Virus record (IMG/VR): IMGVR_UViG_3300028895_000298
Span: 1-42,161 of that record
Reading direction: 5' to 3' (one strand)
Source of the DNA: a virus
DNA: 42,161 nucleotides
Shown: positions 13,115-28,345 of the stretch, piece by piece
Numbering within the stretch: position 1 is the first letter of the stretch
Layout: every line of letters begins with the position of its first letter
The notes under the pieces: model-generated
Told to the model about the DNA's origin: nothing
Seen by the model: the letters and a program-made list of their open reading frames with translations, nothing else
The model's database searches: none
Translations under genes and position numbers: made by a program

Positions 13115-13366
13115 ATGTGGACCCGAGTTCTCGACTTTCTGAAAAAGATTCCCGTCGTCGGTTGGATTATCACTGGGGCCTTGATCCTCCTTGGCCTACT
13201 CGGATCGCGTGGGCGTCGGGACCTTGGCCGCCCGGCGCCCACGCGGGATCCCGAGGAAATCAAGAAAGCAAAGGAGGCGATCGACGATGACCTCAAGGAA
13301 AAGGAAACAGACATTGACGACGAGTGGGACGACGAGGCGGACAAATGGAACGATCACTACTCCTGA
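13115..13366 (+). CDS. Small membrane protein with acidic C-terminal helix
   Basis: 83 residues from ATG 13115. One transmembrane segment (about residues 10-32, IPVVGWIITGALILLGLLG) is followed by a basic patch and then a highly charged helix (about 50-83, rich in D, E and K). Its 3' end overlaps the start of the spanin-like gene (13345) by 22 bases in another frame, recalling Rz/Rz1 nesting. It could be an antiholin, a second holin or an i-spanin-like partner. I cannot decide between these. Upstream spacing and the membrane segment support a real gene. Confidence 0.65.
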   Translation: MWTRVLDFLKKIPVVGWIITGALILLGLLGSRGRRDLGRPAPTRDPEEIKKAKEAIDDDLKEKETDIDDEWDDEADKWNDHYS

Positions 13367-13770
13367 TTCCGATCTTGCTGACGTGCCTGACTGCAACGGC
13401 GATCTCCTGTGGCGGGACGAAGTCGACGACACGAGCGCCGCGGCCCGAGATCGCGCAAGAGATCAAGACTGCTGCGGCCGAGACAATGAAGCGTTGCCCC
13501 CCGAGTCCTGATGGGATCGTCCGTTGTCCCGTTGACCAGTTCCGGAAGTTCGGCGCGGTGTGCCTCGGGTGTGGCCGGGCGCTCTCGAAAGAACGCGCGC
13601 GGACGGAAGCGCTCCGATCAACCGGGGCCCTGGACGTCGAGGCCGAACGCCACAAGACGAACGCAGCCGAAACGAAACTGGCAAGCCCCTGGCGCAACCC
13701 GTGGATCGTGATCCCGGTGACGCTCGCGATCGGGTTCGGGATCGGGTGGGGGCTCGGGTTCAGTCAGTAG
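13345..13770 (+). CDS. u-spanin-like lysis protein (lipoprotein signal plus C-terminal membrane helix)
   Basis: 141 residues from ATG 13345 (an in-frame ATG at 13324 lies inside the previous gene and would bury the signal). The N-terminus has a basic residue, a hydrophobic stretch (LLLIPILLTCLTATA) and Cys22 in an A-I-S-C context followed by GG, a loose lipobox. The C-terminus is a membrane helix (about 118-139, IVIPVTLAIGFGIGWGLGF). Outer-membrane lipid anchor at one end and inner-membrane helix at the other is the definition of a unimolecular spanin such as T1 gp11, which fuses the two membranes at lysis. A C-P-C-C cluster in the middle (about 56-83) includes a CLGC knuckle, which is unusual for spanins. 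It is the last gene of the lysis block. Confidence 0.7.
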   Translation: MERSLLLIPILLTCLTATAISCGGTKSTTRAPRPEIAQEIKTAAAETMKRCPPSPDGIVRCPVDQFRKFGAVCLGCGRALSKERARTEALRSTGALDVEAERHKTNAAETKLASPWRNPWIVIPVTLAIGFGIGWGLGFSQ

Positions 13771-13841
13771 ATTATGACCCTCGGCCGAGCAATTCCCCTG
13801 TTTGCTACGCAACATTATGTGCATACCTGCAATCATTACAT

Positions 13842-13876
13842 AGGCGATTCCCGCGTATAAACCAGGCGATTCCCGC
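13842..13876 (+). repeat. Pair of 13-bp direct repeats, candidate enhancer (UAS) sites
   Basis: AGGCGATTCCCGC occurs at 13842-13854 and again at 13864-13876. The start-to-start distance is 22 bp, about two helical turns, so both copies face the same side of the DNA. They lie about 80-105 bp upstream of the start predicted from the sigma-54 promoter, the distance typical for bacterial enhancer-binding protein sites. Confidence 0.7.
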
Positions 13877-13918
13877 CACCTCTCATCGTAACCCGTTGAT
13901 ATTACTGACCCGCGTGCT

Positions 13919-13935
13919 TTGGCACGGCGTTTGCA
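13919..13935 (+). promoter_or_regulatory. Sigma-54 (RpoN) promoter, -24/-12 type
   Basis: TTGGCACGGCGTTTGCA matches the sigma-54 consensus YTGGCACG-N4-TTGCW at every fixed position. GG of the -24 element is at 13921-13922 and GC of the -12 element at 13933-13934. Predicted start of transcription is about 13945, upstream of the gene at 14014. No well-spaced sigma-70 -10/-35 pair is seen at the same place. The candidate enhancer repeats upstream strengthen the call. Confidence 0.75.
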
Positions 13936-14013
13936 CACTATAAAGGCATGAACGCAAGGGAAACGGGTCTAGAAAAGTGACCGGTGGGTTTGCGCACACA
14001 GAAAGGAAAAACA

Positions 14014-14247
14014 ATGAAGATTCGAAGAGTTAGAGGCGAGGCGCGCTTCTCGTTTGTTGTTGAGATGCCGGCCGAAACAGCCAGAGAAAAGGTCGTTTGT
14101 GATGACCCAGCTGACGAGGCGGTTCTTGAAGGCATACCGCAATCGCTGGATGTGTACATCTGGGGCAAAAACAAACAACCAGCCAGCGTCTTCTTCGAAA
14201 TCCACGAGGAAGACATCGACATCGAAGAAGACGAGGACGTGGAATGA
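14014..14247 (+). CDS. Small acidic protein, unknown
   Basis: 77 residues; the start is ATG 14014 with AGAAAGGA upstream, the first gene after the sigma-54 promoter. It begins with a basic beta-like stretch (MKIRRVRGEARFSFVVEMPA), continues with an acidic middle and ends with about a dozen acidic residues (EEDIDIEEDEDVE). The strongly acidic end is like DNA-mimic or nucleic-acid-displacing phage proteins, but there is no family match that I recognise. It overlaps the next gene by four bases (ATGA). Confidence 0.6.
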   Translation: MKIRRVRGEARFSFVVEMPAETAREKVVCDDPADEAVLEGIPQSLDVYIWGKNKQPASVFFEIHEEDIDIEEDEDVE

Positions 14248-14486
14248 ACAAAAATGTGCGTCTCGGCAAGTACATGACCGCCTATCCAGTCTCGAATGGT
14301 GCTCGCGAGCCGTGGGCCATCAAGGACAGCGACGGGCGATACATTGCCTATCTGGAGTGGTACGCGCCGTGGAGGCAATATGTGATGAACGCTGAGTCAG
14401 CGGCGGTGTTGTCCCACGATTGTCTCACCGCGATAGCTGGTTTTTGCCAGAAATTGACGGGGCAAAAGTGCTCTCACCGCTGTTAA
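14244..14486 (+). CDS. Small unknown protein
   Basis: 80 residues from ATG 14244, coupled to the preceding gene by ATGA overlap. The first half has aromatic and polar residues (DSDGRYIAYLEWYAPWRQYV), suggesting a small beta fold, and the C-terminus has three Cys (FCQK, KCSHRC). Its stop lies inside the left arm of a large inverted repeat (14473-14515). Function unknown. Confidence 0.55.
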   Translation: MNKNVRLGKYMTAYPVSNGAREPWAIKDSDGRYIAYLEWYAPWRQYVMNAESAAVLSHDCLTAIAGFCQKLTGQKCSHRC

Positions 14487-14612: not shown

Positions 14613-14801
14613 ATGGAAATCTACCGCTACAACGAAGATGGTCAGAAGGTACACGCCAAGCACTATCGCATCACGACCAGCGCCGGGATCGTTTACGAGA
14701 TCTGGGCGTTCGACCGGGTCGAGGCCATGGAGATCGCGGACCACGAGGGCATCTTCGAGGACGTCCACGACTACAACGACTCGACCGTTGAGGTGGTGTA
14801 A
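14613..14801 (+). CDS. Small unknown protein
   Basis: 62 residues from ATG 14613, chosen because ACGGAGGAAAAA precedes it; upstream in-frame starts lack a ribosome site. The protein is compact with alternating strands and one helix (YRITTSAGIVYEIWAFDRVE, then AMEIADHEGIFEDV), acidic overall. It shares its final base with the start of the next gene (TAATG). No family recognised. Confidence 0.55.
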   Translation: MEIYRYNEDGQKVHAKHYRITTSAGIVYEIWAFDRVEAMEIADHEGIFEDVHDYNDSTVEVV

Positions 14802-15043
14802 TGGACTTCGATCAAGTTCGAGAGTTCGCAGCCAAGACCGTGCCGCTTGTCAACGTCGCCCGCGCCAGGATCGAAACGTCCGCCGAGGACGAGCCCGGCA
14901 AGTGGGCCGTTGATTTCATCAGGCGGATCGTCATAAGCGAGTTTGCGCTGTCACTCAAAGAGGCCCAGGCCGTCGCCGAGCATGCGGTCCAGCGGGCATT
15001 GCAGGATATCTACGAGGACACCCTAAAGGAGGAGAAATCATGA
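14801..15043 (+). CDS. Small helical protein, unknown
   Basis: 80 residues; ATG 14801 overlaps the previous stop and GAGGTGG lies upstream. It is almost entirely helical and acidic (FALSLKEAQAVAEHAVQRAL, about 48-67), without membrane segments or Cys motifs. It overlaps the next gene by four bases (ATGA), so the three genes 14613-15237 are translationally coupled. Function unknown. Confidence 0.55.
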   Translation: MDFDQVREFAAKTVPLVNVARARIETSAEDEPGKWAVDFIRRIVISEFALSLKEAQAVAEHAVQRALQDIYEDTLKEEKS

Positions 15044-15237
15044 GCGCCCAGAACTACACCTTCCGCTTGACCGATGAGATCCTAAAATGGCTAGAGCGCA
15101 ACGGCCAGCCCAAGTCGAAACAACTGCGCCGCGACCTGGAGGCACTCCAGATGATCCGGAAGCTGGCGAAGCGCGACAAACAAAAGCACCTCTTGTTGCG
15201 GGACGTGGCCGAGGATTTCGGGTTGCTTGACGCTTGA
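15040..15237 (+). CDS. Small basic helical protein, unknown
   Basis: 65 residues from ATG 15040 with AAGGAGGAG upstream. It is basic and helical, starting MSAQNYTFRLTDEILKWLER and containing many Lys and Arg (RKLAKRDKQKH), which may suit nucleic-acid binding. The opening resembles small ribbon-helix-helix-like proteins (F.L.DE..KWLE) but is too short on evidence for a call. The -35 box of a strong sigma-70 promoter overlaps its stop codon. Confidence 0.5.
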   Translation: MSAQNYTFRLTDEILKWLERNGQPKSKQLRRDLEALQMIRKLAKRDKQKHLLLRDVAEDFGLLDA

Positions 15238-15262
15238 CACATTGATCCGGCCGGGTGATAAT
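15234..15262 (+). promoter_or_regulatory. Strong sigma-70 promoter (TTGACA-N17-GATAAT)
   Basis: TTGACA at 15234-15239, a 17-base spacer and GATAAT at 15257-15262. This is close to the consensus. The predicted start is near 15269. Directly at that point lies a dyad ATGAG-GTCCT-CTCAT (15261-15275) that could be an operator or a 5' hairpin. The transcript reads into the exonuclease gene at 15537. Confidence 0.75.
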
Positions 15263-15371: not shown

Positions 15372-15486
15372 CGGACCCATGATCAAACGACTGCAAAAAC
15401 TCGAAGTGGAAAAAGCGTAAGCGCCCCCGTCCGGTTTCCAGTTGGCATCCTGCCTGCATGGGTCCGGCCGGGCGGGGGTTGCTTTT
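15372..15486 (+). ncRNA. Leader RNA with 5'-end/terminator-loop pairing (copy 1 of 3)
   Basis: Element A, CGGACCCATG (15372-15381), is at the predicted 5' end. Element B, CCCCCGTCCGG (15424-15434), pairs with B', CCGGGCGGGGG (15468-15478), followed by TTGCTTTT. The loop between B and B' contains A', CATGGGTCCG (15457-15466), the exact complement of A, ending one base before B'. A-A' and B-B' interlock and with so short a link can hardly form together, so they should be alternatives. A 13-codon ORF starts in A (ATG 15379) and stops just before B. The hairpin lies upstream of the ribosome site of 15537. Confidence 0.6.
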
Positions 15487-22818: not shown

Positions 22819-23194
22819 GATCATCGAGCGTAAAGATCTACTATTGCAGTTGCTCGATAAACTGGACTCGGCCGAAGAGGACGCCAAGGCGGCGAGGGAT
22901 CGGCACAAGTCCATCATTCAGGGATTCGAGGCTGGTATAGTCTCGGCACGCGCCGCGCTACGTACCAACATGGAAAAGCGCCCGGTGCTCTGCGATCAGC
23001 ACTTTGACCACACCAAGCAAACGGTTGAGGTATTCCGAGCCGACACCGGGGCGCGGGTTCACGAGCGGGCGATGCTGCCGAGCGAAAAGCAAACGACCCT
23101 TGACGAAAAAGTCGCAGACGCCAAAAAGAAAGCCGGGGGAAAGACAGAGGCCAAGGGCAACGTGCTGCCGATGACGGCGCCGACGGGGAAGTGA
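22673..23194 (+). CDS. Conserved phage coiled-coil protein, unknown
   Basis: 173 residues from GTG 22673, preceded by GAGGAGATGGAAC. The first 45 residues, which overlap gene 22477, are low-complexity (S, K, P, T), then comes a coiled coil (about 48-100). It continues with a segment with CDQHFDHTKQTVEVFRADTG and ARVHERAMLPSEKQ (about 110-145), and a Lys-rich tail. The 'E..R.DTG....RAM...E' pattern is familiar from phage early proteins that lie near recombination genes. It overlaps the methyltransferase start (GTGA). Function unknown. Confidence 0.65.
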   Translation: MNKSKEPSGISKSTPNSPAKDAASVTKRKPEVRKKSATLSLPCKLSKAEIIERKDLLLQLLDKLDSAEEDAKAARDRHKSIIQGFEAGIVSARAALRTNMEKRPVLCDQHFDHTKQTVEVFRADTGARVHERAMLPSEKQTTLDEKVADAKKKAGGKTEAKGNVLPMTAPTGK

Positions 23195-24048
23195 AGCGCT
23201 TGAATGTCGGATCGCTATTCACGGGAATCGGGGGTTTCGATCTTGGATTCGAAGGAACAGGATTCAAGATCGCATGGCAGGTTGAGCATGACAAATTCTG
23301 CAACGAACTCCTGCAAGCCAAGTGGCCAGGCGTCAAGCGATATGGAGACATCCGCGAACTCGCCAAAGAAACACCGGAAGCAGTTGATCTTGTTTGTGGA
23401 GGTGACCCCTGTCCTTCGAGATCTAACGCCAAAGGAAACAGTCCGTCAGCCCATCCCGATCTTGCCGGATACTTCCTTGCCGTGGTCGGGCGATTACAAC
23501 CACGATGGGTGGTCCGCGAGAATGTACCTGCACCAGATGCTATCGACTTCGCGGCCGGACTGGAAACCCTCGGATACAGAGTCGTTGCTTTCGAACTCGA
23601 CGCTAGAGATTTCACGAGTCAGAGTAGACGGCGGCATATCTTTGTCGGAAGTTCTGGAGAAAGAGCCACCCGATTCAAGCGAGCATTACTTGACGCCCAA
23701 GATGGTGCTGGGATTGGCACATCGAGCCCTCAAGAGACAACGCCCATTGCAGCGTGTGTTACTGCGCACCCCGCAAGGATGGCGGCGGAGGACAGTTATT
23801 GTTGGGAGCCCTGTACAGACGCAGTCCTCCTCAAATGCCAGCCGCCATCCGGACAAGAAACCGGAAACTACCTTTACCAAGGCGGGAGATTACGTGTTCT
23901 CACTCCTGAAGAGTGTGAGGGTCTCCAGGGATTCCCCAGAGGCTGGACTACTGGATTTTCTCGCTCGCGCCGTCGAGCAATGCTTGGCAACGCAATCCCG
24001 GTCCCGTTCGCCGAATTCGTCGGAAGACTGATAAAGGAGATTGAATGA
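23191..24048 (+). CDS. DNA (cytosine-5-)-methyltransferase, phage Dcm type
   Basis: 285 residues from GTG 23191. C5-methyltransferase motifs in order: motif I SLFTGIGGFDLGFEGTG (8-24), motif IV GGDPCPSRSNAKG with catalytic Cys74, motif VI RENV (109-112), motif VIII QSRRRH (144-149), and a C-terminal LTPEECEGLQGFPRGW then LGNAIPVPFAEFVG (motifs IX-X). The target recognition region is short (about 155-230), as in small phage enzymes. Third-position GC is low: my hand count for 23401-23820 gives about 49%, against clearly higher in the next gene. The whole body of the gene is also open in the +1 frame (23204-24031). No cognate restriction gene is near, so protection against host restriction or regulation is likely. 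Confidence 0.88.
   Translation: MKRLNVGSLFTGIGGFDLGFEGTGFKIAWQVEHDKFCNELLQAKWPGVKRYGDIRELAKETPEAVDLVCGGDPCPSRSNAKGNSPSAHPDLAGYFLAVVGRLQPRWVVRENVPAPDAIDFAAGLETLGYRVVAFELDARDFTSQSRRRHIFVGSSGERATRFKRALLDAQDGAGIGTSSPQETTPIAACVTAHPARMAAEDSYCWEPCTDAVLLKCQPPSGQETGNYLYQGGRLRVLTPEECEGLQGFPRGWTTGFSRSRRRAMLGNAIPVPFAEFVGRLIKEIE
23204..24031 (+). CDS. Candidate overprinted gene nested in the cytosine methyltransferase (+1 frame)
   Basis: 275 codons without a stop, starting 13 bases after the methyltransferase start and ending 17 bases before its stop. It is the longest same-strand out-of-frame ORF in the genome. By hand count over 23401-23820 its third-position GC is about 63%, higher than the 49% of the methyltransferase frame, so codon choice looks better in this frame. 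The product has protein-like segments: SGDYNHDGWSARMYLHQMLS (about 93-112), ISLSEVLEK and HYLTPKMVLGLAHRALKR (about 160-178). The last resembles a helical 'SPKA..GILRRA.KR' motif that I recall in phage proteins linked to Dcm genes. No strong ribosome site is visible; coupling to the 23191 start is possible. Function unknown. Confidence 0.5.
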   Translation: MSDRYSRESGVSILDSKEQDSRSHGRLSMTNSATNSCKPSGQASSDMETSANSPKKHRKQLILFVEVTPVLRDLTPKETVRQPIPILPDTSLPWSGDYNHDGWSARMYLHQMLSTSRPDWKPSDTESLLSNSTLEISRVRVDGGISLSEVLEKEPPDSSEHYLTPKMVLGLAHRALKRQRPLQRVLLRTPQGWRRRTVIVGSPVQTQSSSNASRHPDKKPETTFTKAGDYVFSLLKSVRVSRDSPEAGLLDFLARAVEQCLATQSRSRSPNSSED

Positions 24049-25750: not shown

Positions 25751-26020
25751 GCAGGAGTGGAACGAATTAGAGCGGAACAATTGGAGGCCACGGGACTGGA
25801 TTGGCAGGAGAGGAACGCAACGGAGAGAATGGGAGCGGAGCGGATGGGAAAGGCCGGAGAGGAGAGAGCGAAGCGAAGCGGAGCAGATTGAAATGGAGCG
25901 GATAGGATGGGAGGGCAGCGCAGTGGAAGGGCCGGATAGAAGAGGGGAGAGGATGGGCAAGGACAGGAGAGGCAGGACATGGCAAGGCAAGGCACGGCAA
26001 GGCAAGGCAAGGGATATCTT
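25751..26020 (+). repeat. Purine-rich degenerate repeat tract without a gene
   Basis: About 270 bases with strong purine excess on the + strand, made of degenerate GGAGCGGA, GGAGAGGA and finally GGCAAGGCAAGGCACGG units. The + strand carries no credible ORF and the minus-strand ORFs are Pro/Leu/Ser low-complexity shadows. The periodicity is about 5 bases at the 3' end (GGCAA). The last unit AAGGG sits at ribosome-site distance from ATG 26021. It may form triplex or G-rich structures, be a replication or packaging element, or be an untranslated RNA. Confidence 0.75.
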
Positions 26021-26119
26021 ATGAGACTTGATCGAGAATCCAAACTCCTGATTTTGGCCATCCTTCTCGAAGTGCTGGCGTTTATCTTGGTGAGCTACCT
26101 TCTGGAGTGGATGCCATGA
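26021..26119 (+). CDS. Very small single-pass membrane peptide
   Basis: 32 residues, starting directly after the purine tract with AAGGGAT upstream. After a charged start (MRLDRESK) it is a hydrophobic helix (LLILAILLEVLAFILVSYLL, residues 9-28) ending EWMP. The stop overlaps the methyltransferase start (ATGA). Small membrane peptides of this kind are common in phages but seldom annotated. It could act on host membranes or only couple translation to the next gene. Confidence 0.45.
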   Translation: MRLDRESKLLILAILLEVLAFILVSYLLEWMP

Positions 26120-27462
26120 CGCTACTCAATGGAGATTGTCGAGAGATCTTGCCCACCCTGGAAGACAACTCAGTTGACGCCATTGTCACGGATCCACCTG
26201 CGGGAATTTCATTCATGGGGAAAAAATGGGACAGCGACAAGGGAGGGCGGGACACCTGGATCGCTTGGCTGGGATCAATCATGGCGGAATGCATGCGGGT
26301 ACTCAAGCCCGGGGGTCATGCTTTTGTGTGGGCGCTACCACGGACAAGCCACTGGACAGGGACAGCGATTGAAAACGCAGGGTTTGAGATCCGTGATTCG
26401 TTTCACCACATATTCGGGAGTGGATTTCCTAAATCGCTGGATATAAGCAAAGCGATAGACGCAGCGGCGGGGGCGGAGAGGGAGGTGGTTCAGGAACGCA
26501 AAGGGCCAAAGCCCGGGGACCACGGGGGATCTGGACACTATGGTCACGGCGAAGATCGATCCATAACCACCCCCACCACCCCCCAAGCCAAGCAATGGAA
26601 CGGCTGGGGGACAGCCGCCAAGCCCAGTCATGAAGTCTGGTGGCTAGCCCGCAAGCCTTTCCCCGGGACCGTTGCAAGCAATGTACAAGAATGGGGAACG
26701 GGGGGAATCAATGTTGCAGCGTGTCGAGTGGGGACGGCAGAGAGGTACAACCAGCCAGCGACAGCGGCAAAAGACACATTCAACGCAAGTCCCGGAAGCG
26801 GGATTGATTACACGGGCCAAGAAGTTGCTGGCCGATGGCCCCCCAACCTACTCCTAACCCATTCCCAAACCTGCCATGCGATAACAGAGGGACCGAACAA
26901 GGGATGGAACTGCGCCCCTGATTGTCCAATAAGGGAAATGGATCGACAGAGTGGGGAGAGTGTGACACCTGCGTTTGTGACGCGAGGCGTAGGCAGAATG
27001 TGGAAAGAGGGGGGTGGCCTTTGTAATAAGGCAGAGAATCAACCATGTTCGGACACCGGCGGAGCTTCCCGTTTCTTTCCCTGTTTCAAATACTGCCCCA
27101 AGCCTAGCAGGGCTGAGAGGGAGCAAGGCTGTCAGGGGTTGCCCAAGAAATCAGCGGGGGAATGCACCGACAGGGAAGACGGATCGGCTGGGCTGGATTC
27201 TCCCCGGGCGGGAGCGGGCAGGACTTCAGGCGCAAGCAACAATCACCCAACGGTCAAGGCAAGCGAGTTGATGTGCTGGCTCATAAGGCTGATCACGCCC
27301 CCCGGGGGCACTGTCTTGGATCCTTTCATGGGTTCAGGCTCAACAGGAATTGCAGCGCACAAAGAAAGCTGCGGCTTCATAGGCATTGAGATGAATCCTG
27401 ATTATTTCCGAATTGCAGAAGCAAGGATCAAAGACGCCACCAAGCAAGGGAGGCTGTTTTGA
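26116..27462 (+). CDS. Site-specific DNA N6-adenine/N4-cytosine methyltransferase
   Basis: 448 residues; ATG 26116 is chosen over GTG 26107 because of the ATGA overlap and GGAG at the right distance. The catalytic motif IV is TDPPAGISFMGKKWD (25-39, DPPA in place of the more usual DPPY). MRVLKPGGHAFVWALPR follows (about 64-80). Near the C-terminus LDPFMGSGSTGIAA (about 401-414) is the SAM-binding motif I, so the order is IV before I (beta class). The middle has a Cys- and Gly-rich variable target recognition region (about 200-340). With the Dcm it makes two methyltransferases and no nuclease, typical of anti-restriction modification. The target site cannot be told. Confidence 0.88.
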   Translation: MTLLNGDCREILPTLEDNSVDAIVTDPPAGISFMGKKWDSDKGGRDTWIAWLGSIMAECMRVLKPGGHAFVWALPRTSHWTGTAIENAGFEIRDSFHHIFGSGFPKSLDISKAIDAAAGAEREVVQERKGPKPGDHGGSGHYGHGEDRSITTPTTPQAKQWNGWGTAAKPSHEVWWLARKPFPGTVASNVQEWGTGGINVAACRVGTAERYNQPATAAKDTFNASPGSGIDYTGQEVAGRWPPNLLLTHSQTCHAITEGPNKGWNCAPDCPIREMDRQSGESVTPAFVTRGVGRMWKEGGGLCNKAENQPCSDTGGASRFFPCFKYCPKPSRAEREQGCQGLPKKSAGECTDREDGSAGLDSPRAGAGRTSGASNNHPTVKASELMCWLIRLITPPGGTVLDPFMGSGSTGIAAHKESCGFIGIEMNPDYFRIAEARIKDATKQGRLF

Positions 27463-28042: not shown

Positions 28043-28294
28043 ATGTTCCGTCAACGCAGCGGATTCGGTCGCCCGGGTGTTGGCTGGTGGATGGTCGTCG
28101 CGATCGAGGACACGTATTATCGGGCAACCCGGATCACCGTGGAGACTGCAAACAAGCTTGGGTACCAGCGGACGTGCTTGTTTACCGACTGGCCGGGCCT
28201 GTGGTTGCTTAGACCGTTCAAAGGGACTCAGCACACCTTGTCAGTAAGAGAGCAGACAGAGGAGGATCAACGAGTGGCGGTAGGCGAATGGTAA
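28043..28294 (+). CDS. Possible small protein overlapping the tRNA
   Basis: 83 residues from ATG 28043 (AGGTGG just upstream, short spacing), or about 65 from an internal ATG. The sequence looks protein-like (WWMVVAIEDTYYRATRITVE; LFTDWPGLWLLRPFKG) and codon third positions are GC-rich. The competing ORF 27990-28247 has a Ser/Arg/Cys-rich shadow composition. The last 21 bases overlap the 5' part of the tRNA, which is unusual and lowers confidence. Function unknown. Confidence 0.4.
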   Translation: MFRQRSGFGRPGVGWWMVVAIEDTYYRATRITVETANKLGYQRTCLFTDWPGLWLLRPFKGTQHTLSVREQTEEDQRVAVGEW

Positions 28295-28345
28295 GCCGCC
28301 TGGTTGTGGACCAGGTACATGTGAGTTCAAATCTCATCCGTCACC
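28274..28345 (+). tRNA. tRNA-His (anticodon GTG)
   Basis: The cloverleaf can be drawn completely. The acceptor arm is GTGGCGG/CCGTCAC with one G-U pair. The D arm is GGC/GCC with loop GAATGGTAA. The anticodon arm is CCTGG/CCAGG with loop TTGTGGA (anticodon GTG). The variable loop is TACAT, and the T arm is GTGAG/CTCAT with loop TTCAAAT. The discriminator is C, the identity base of bacterial tRNA-His; G-1 is not encoded (A at 28273) and 3' CCA is not encoded. It is the only tRNA I found. Confidence 0.9.

Follow-up and report, generated by a model that had tools for sequence, protein, structure and literature searches.

A predicted sigma-54 promoter with an IHF site and paired upstream repeats ahead of the early operon of an uncultured phage

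Which transcription machinery would switch on the early genes of a phage that carries, directly ahead of them, the only full match to the sigma-54 consensus in its genome? The locus lies in a linear IMG/VR virus record of 42,161 bp (58% G+C), which was analyzed in its entirety and is referred to here as the window. The first-pass annotation had placed a canonical sigma-54 promoter at the junction of the lysis block and the early genes, and the gene order bears this out. The upstream side, ending at 13770, carries structural genes, an amidase (PF01520), a Holin_LLH protein (PF09682), and two small genes; the downstream side, from 14014, carries five small genes followed by those for a RecE-like exonuclease, a phrog_3657 protein, a replication-initiation-like protein, and a DnaB helicase. 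The five small genes, all on the plus strand and all without family matches, lie at 14014-14247 (77 aa, the first gene of the operon), 14244-14486 (80 aa), 14613-14801 (62 aa), 14801-15043 (80 aa), and 15040-15237 (65 aa). The small protein encoded after the holin at 13345-13770, also without a family match, has a lipoprotein-like signal together with a hydrophobic stretch at the C terminus, a combination that we take to resemble a one-piece spanin. We consider it very likely that positions 13842-13954 form the control region of the early operon and act as a sigma-54 promoter that depends on three host factors: sigma-54, IHF, and an activator.

The promoter core, TTGGCACGGCGTTTGCA, occupies positions 13919-13935 of the plus strand, within the intergenic region 13771-14013, in the same orientation as the first gene and 79 bp ahead of its ATG at 14014. 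Its -24 GG (13921-13922) and -12 GC (13933-13934) are separated by 10 bp, and it agrees with 14 of the 14 informative letters of YTGGCACGRNNNTTGCW, which, like the IHF pattern below, is the consensus of the literature. The full RpoN match claimed earlier thus stands: no full match arises in 300 dinucleotide shuffles of the window, matches with at most one mismatch average 0.16 per shuffle, and the runner-up sites in the window itself have two mismatches. Neither the core nor the upstream repeat described below is enriched in the window at up to three mismatches (for the repeat, 24 seen versus 21 expected), so inexact matches are given no weight. A scan for a sigma-70-type site (TTGACA/TATAAT, 16-18 bp apart) finds none at 13900-13960. 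The sole such site between 12500 and 16500, at 15234-15262 ahead of the exonuclease gene, is a strong one (TTGACA, 17 nt, GATAAT; 11 of 12 letters), and the operon may therefore have a second, ordinary promoter.

Upstream of the core, two exact copies of the 13-bp direct repeat AGGCGATTCCCGC lie on the plus strand at 13842-13854 and 13864-13876, 22 bp apart from start to start. Apart from this pair and a low-complexity tandem at 25981, the window has no exact 13-mer direct repeat at 13-60 bp spacing, and shuffling yields a mean of 0.04 such repeats per window. The first-pass annotation had described the pair correctly and placed it 80-105 bp upstream of the predicted start; with +1 at about 13946, the distances become about -104/-92 and -82/-70. 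Both copies are candidate activator sites, a role suggested by their position. Between them and the promoter, positions 13889-13901 match the IHF consensus exactly on the minus strand (WATCAANNNNTTR; plus strand TAACCCGTTGATA); this element, overlooked in the first reading, is the sole exact match on either strand of the window. Within 94 bp, the window thus has its only full sigma-54 consensus, its only exact match to the IHF consensus, and its only closely spaced exact 13-mer repeat other than simple sequence, and the order of elements within 13771-14013 is AGGCGATTCCCGC twice, TAACCCGTTGATA, TTGGCACGGCGTTTGCA, and GGCATGAACG. The exact AGGCGATTCCCGC pair is found in no other IMG/VR contig. 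A further word, CTACGCAA at 13805-13812 of the plus strand, also precedes the promoter in L014, L019, L091, and L123 (5 of 23 upstream regions, with the window) and was considered as a shared activator site; we dropped it as too weak because 12 of 60 shuffle sets reached five for some 8-mer.

The last element in this order, GGCATGAACG at 13945-13954, was likewise overlooked in the first reading and marks the predicted start region, with +1 placed by convention at about 13946. Its ATG begins a 10-codon open frame (MNARETGLEK, 13948-13980) that ends before the first gene. In most other members of the promoter class described below the corresponding frame continues into the first gene, which the conserved ATG usually opens: 15 of 19 members keep the frame open over 60 codons or more, or as far as the contig end, and it stops early in the window, L076, L115, and L138. 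The gene entered in this way often has a second ATG with a ribosome site 30-40 bases further on.

Conservation could be assessed in one close relative, the 7,852-bp contig L002, the only one found, which was retrieved via the amidase and not via the promoter. Genes shared on both sides are 67-83% identical (89% for the 80-aa product of the fourth small gene; the fifth is conserved as well), and local alignment of the diverged intergenic regions gives as longest exact blocks AGGCATGAACG (11 bases, two overlapping 10-mers) and TTGGCACGG. The -24 element of L002 is identical to that of the window, and 11 bases formed by GGCATGAACG and the preceding A are identical too. Loss of the GG or GC in close relatives had been named as one observation that would speak against the promoter; both are kept in the L002 core, TTGGCACGGTACGTGCT, where the -12 element reads GTGC (GTGCT) versus TTGC in the window, one T being lost. 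The 13-bp repeats of the window are absent from L002, which has repeats of its own (ATGCATGCGC twice; 1 in 30 by shuffles) together with a near-IHF site, and farther upstream the two promoter regions align again (CTACGCA...CATAG). Two neighboring features were noted along the way. A conserved stretch ahead of the exonuclease gene, at 15425-15486 of the window and 3025-3088 of L002, has complementary C-rich and G-rich arms and looks like a hairpin or attenuator, and the same operon of L002 ends with a cysteine-rich lipoprotein-like gene (2501-2902) that the window lacks. Searches with the exonuclease, the phrog_3657-type protein, and the 80-aa protein returned L002 alone or matches of about 22-28% identity, too distant for comparing promoters; a portal search gave no match, and the terminase has only matches of about 25% identity, to Vibrio and E. 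coli phages, which do not point to a host. BLAST searches of 50,697 phage records with the 3-kb region, the 66-bp promoter, and a 63-nt consensus returned nothing convincing (best E value, 6).

Pattern scans of IMG/VR place the promoter in a wider class. A first scan, with TTGGCACG-N5-TGCW-N7-10-GGCATGAA, returned 10 contigs, among them L019, which matches the window at 89% over 45 bp and shares no convincing proteins with it. A second scan fixed GGCA, TGC, and GGCATGAACG (17 bases), and the remaining sigma-54 positions, which were free, served as an internal test. Of its 81 matching stretches, 80 were read, and these, with the window added and near-duplicates removed, gave 53 loci. Judged solely by the sequence downstream (a T-poor stretch leading to a ribosome site and a start codon, a rule drawn up after the hits had been seen), 14 of the 53 stand out, and 11 of these 14 match all four free sigma-54 positions, which a given locus would do by chance about once in 32; without L002, L014, and L019, 8 of the 11 remain. 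The other 39 loci include nine with such matches, one of them the window, which falls outside the 14 on account of two T in the stretch concerned. The three of the 14 that lack a full match are L077, which is one letter off, and L079 and L128, which look like chance coding hits.

The class comprises about 19 distinct phage loci in which YTGGCAY and TGCW are followed, 8-11 nt on, by GGCATGAACG. Because its 19 members were picked partly by eye after the hits had been seen, free-position counts on them are inflated; 11 of 14 is therefore the fairer figure, and we restrict use of the list to features that had no bearing on its selection. One of these is an IHF-like site (at most one mismatch, within 90 bp upstream), which occurs in 8 of 19 members and not in the other 11; shuffles average 2.5 and reach 8 in none of 400 trials, and the counts in control stretches taken farther upstream are 2 of 19, 3 of 19, and 2 of 18. 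Another is the presence of exact repeats, direct or inverted and 12 bp or longer, between -200 and -35, found in eight of the 19 (window, L014, L019, L077, L099, L114, L119, and L123) and equalled in none of 60 shuffles for each. These repeats differ from phage to phage, and each phage may thus listen to a different host regulator. Gene context also recurs: as in the window, the L114 element is followed by genes for exonuclease VIII and a Sak4-like protein, and that of L091 by a replication initiator. The L076 element lies between the terminase and portal genes, ahead of the latter, so early operons are common downstream of these promoters and are not the rule. The layout of sigma-54 core, IHF-like site, phage-specific repeats, and predicted transcript start GGCAUGAACG recurs in about 19 distinct uncultured phage loci.

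The phages of this class carry additional sigma-54 sites. In 26 records (the class records plus four contigs from the first scan), YTGGCAY-N5-TTGCW occurs 24 times versus once for the reversed pattern, although 15 of the 24 are the sites used to select the record. Four of the nine unselected sites lie in non-coding DNA just ahead of a gene (G309 6917, G307 8106, G006 144, and G003 5362); three, in open coding frames, look like chance (G306 10049 and two in G005), and the remaining two (G307 12031 and G305 50676) were assigned to neither group. In G003 (L153, 5000-6300), two divergent sigma-54 sites share the 16-mer TGGCACGTCGCTTGCA, each with GGCATG at its start, and in the phage of L010 the first site is preceded, 178 bp upstream, by another near-consensus site.

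The start motif is not confined to phages. We had considered GGCATGAACG as a phage-only mark and dropped the idea, as 41 chromosomal loci from many phyla carry a sigma-54 core and GGCATGAAC before a gene; since this layout precedes chromosomal genes in so many cases, bacteria evidently read it. Two metagenome-assembled genomes have it, nearly leaderless, ahead of RNA 3'-phosphate cyclase genes (L031 4962-5967 and L057 568-1572). The genome of L037 (G016; 7.1 Mb, "uncultured proteobacterium") has 60 strict sigma-54 sites versus one in the control, an unusually heavy use of RpoN, and strict sites are present in all 19 genomes searched of its kin group. A genome search returned no relative, and a prophage search of 282 genomes from the phylum of G016 gave one 42% protein match in a locus otherwise unrelated. 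The first-pass annotation saw no phage-encoded enhancer-binding ATPase, and we agree: the sigma-54 activator domain (PF00158) is absent above cut-off from the window and from 21 related records, several of them fragments (0 of 22), with one P-loop match below cut-off in G310. The activator therefore probably comes from the host. Together with the exact IHF site and the class in unrelated phages, the lack of a recognizable ATPase of this kind in the record further backs the sigma-54 reading.

The mechanism that we infer from these elements would begin with host RNA polymerase bearing RpoN, which would sit on the -24/-12 elements (13919-13935) as a silent closed complex. IHF would bend the DNA at 13889-13901, and a host activator ATPase, bound upstream with the 13-bp repeats as best candidate sites, would be looped onto the polymerase and open the complex. 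The transcript would begin at the GGC of 13945-13947, two or three bases ahead of the AUG, and the early genes from 14014 would be transcribed only when the host activator is present and active.

The part of this scheme most open to another reading is the role of the repeats. A genuine sigma-54 promoter might carry 13-bp repeats that bind a phage repressor or some other regulator, the activator acting from solution or from other sites. We regard this as rather unlikely but worth keeping in view, because the repeats change from one phage to the next and those of the window are missing in L002, the alignment of L002 with the window further upstream offers another place for an activator to bind, and some sigma-54 activators function without bound enhancers. 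Against it, the position of the repeats at about -104 to -70, their 22-bp phasing, and the IHF site between them and the promoter reproduce activator layouts known in general. A more distant departure would turn the -24/-12-like sequence itself into a protein-binding site, such as the operator of a phage repressor, overlapping an ordinary promoter. The GCA...TGC core is indeed partly palindromic, L002 has a perfect GCACG-GTA-CGTGC dyad, and TATAAA directly follows the core in the window. Yet the inner bases are unpaired in other members, the flanks follow the asymmetric sigma-54 consensus, and the site always points to a gene with 8-11 nt to GGCATG; TATAAA is not kept in L002, and the scan gives no sigma-70 site here. 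We consider the operator reading improbable.

It is more improbable still that the promoter match is a coincidence and the early operon uses another promoter. Hosts as rich in sigma-54 sites as G016 could pass one on by chance, but this would leave unexplained the conservation in L002, the IHF site, the class in unrelated phages, and the additional sites in phages of the class. Strong conservation of the start region might also be expected if the core and GGCATGAACG formed the promoter of a phage-encoded RNA polymerase. Promoters of such polymerases occur many times per genome, whereas the window has one copy and class records usually one and at most three, and the same core precedes chromosomal genes in many bacteria, those for RNA cyclases included; this last explanation is hardly credible. 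The sigma-54 promoter run by host factors remains our preferred reading.

Sigma-54 promoters often, though not always, have an IHF site between enhancer and promoter. Bacterial RpoN promoters of the nifH, glnA, and pspA type have IHF and enhancer sites, and the window resembles them in its -24/-12 elements, in the IHF site between promoter and repeats, and in having repeats at -70 to -104 that are spaced by about two turns of the helix. It differs in lying before the early operon of a lytic-type phage, in having no adjacent activator gene, and in the conserved near-leaderless GGCATGAACG. The usual picture is that phages rely on the housekeeping sigma factor for early transcription, so that the host is taken over at once, whereas a sigma-54 promoter gives no transcript before an ATP-driven activator has acted; phages with a sigma-54 early promoter would thus depend on the state of the host from the first minute, and infection may wait for a particular host-cell state. 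The nearest described idea is "lytic deferment", proposed for phages of Alphaproteobacteria with promoters controlled by the response regulator CtrA through TTAA-N7-TTAA sites (PMC9437464). There too, phage genes are placed under a host master regulator and sense host state; here, the sigma factor itself and a candidate ATPase activator would be recruited, and the main text of that paper does not mention RpoN or sigma-54. Phage Xp10 also meets the host sigma-54 polymerase, through its P7 protein, which inhibits the enzyme; the part of that report considered here describes no phage sigma-54 promoter (PMC5053324). Phage activity is likewise tied to sigma-54 transcription in the RtcR/RpoN RNA-repair operon, induced through prophage Gifsy-1, where the promoter is chromosomal and not the phage's own (PMC9879122). 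While sigma-54 promoters as such are well known, the full text of open-licence papers yielded no report of their use as phage promoters of this kind, with a standard near-leaderless start, in keeping with the earlier remark that a phage operon tied to RpoN is rarely reported, and the 50,697 phage records gave no clear BLAST match.

As a tentative generalization that we consider less likely than not, many uncultured lytic phages may independently have placed their early operon under host sigma-54, IHF, and a host-specific activator, with the near-leaderless start GGCAUGAACG, such that infection stalls at the closed complex until a host signal arrives. If true, this would be a sigma-54 form of lytic deferment, with the pili or flagella program, nitrogen, or envelope stress as signals. 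From the upstream repeats one could predict the host regulator that a phage senses, and the layout shared by many unrelated environmental phages makes the idea testable. Sigma-54 early promoters could also explain poor growth of such phages in rich medium, and the near-leaderless starts would offer a ready-made collection for work on how sigma-54 transcripts are translated without a leader.

Elsewhere in the window, two genes encode DNA methyltransferases (23191-24048 and 26107-27462), the match of the second being in a split arrangement, and a tRNA-His (gtg) at 28274-28345 is the sole tRNA of the phage.
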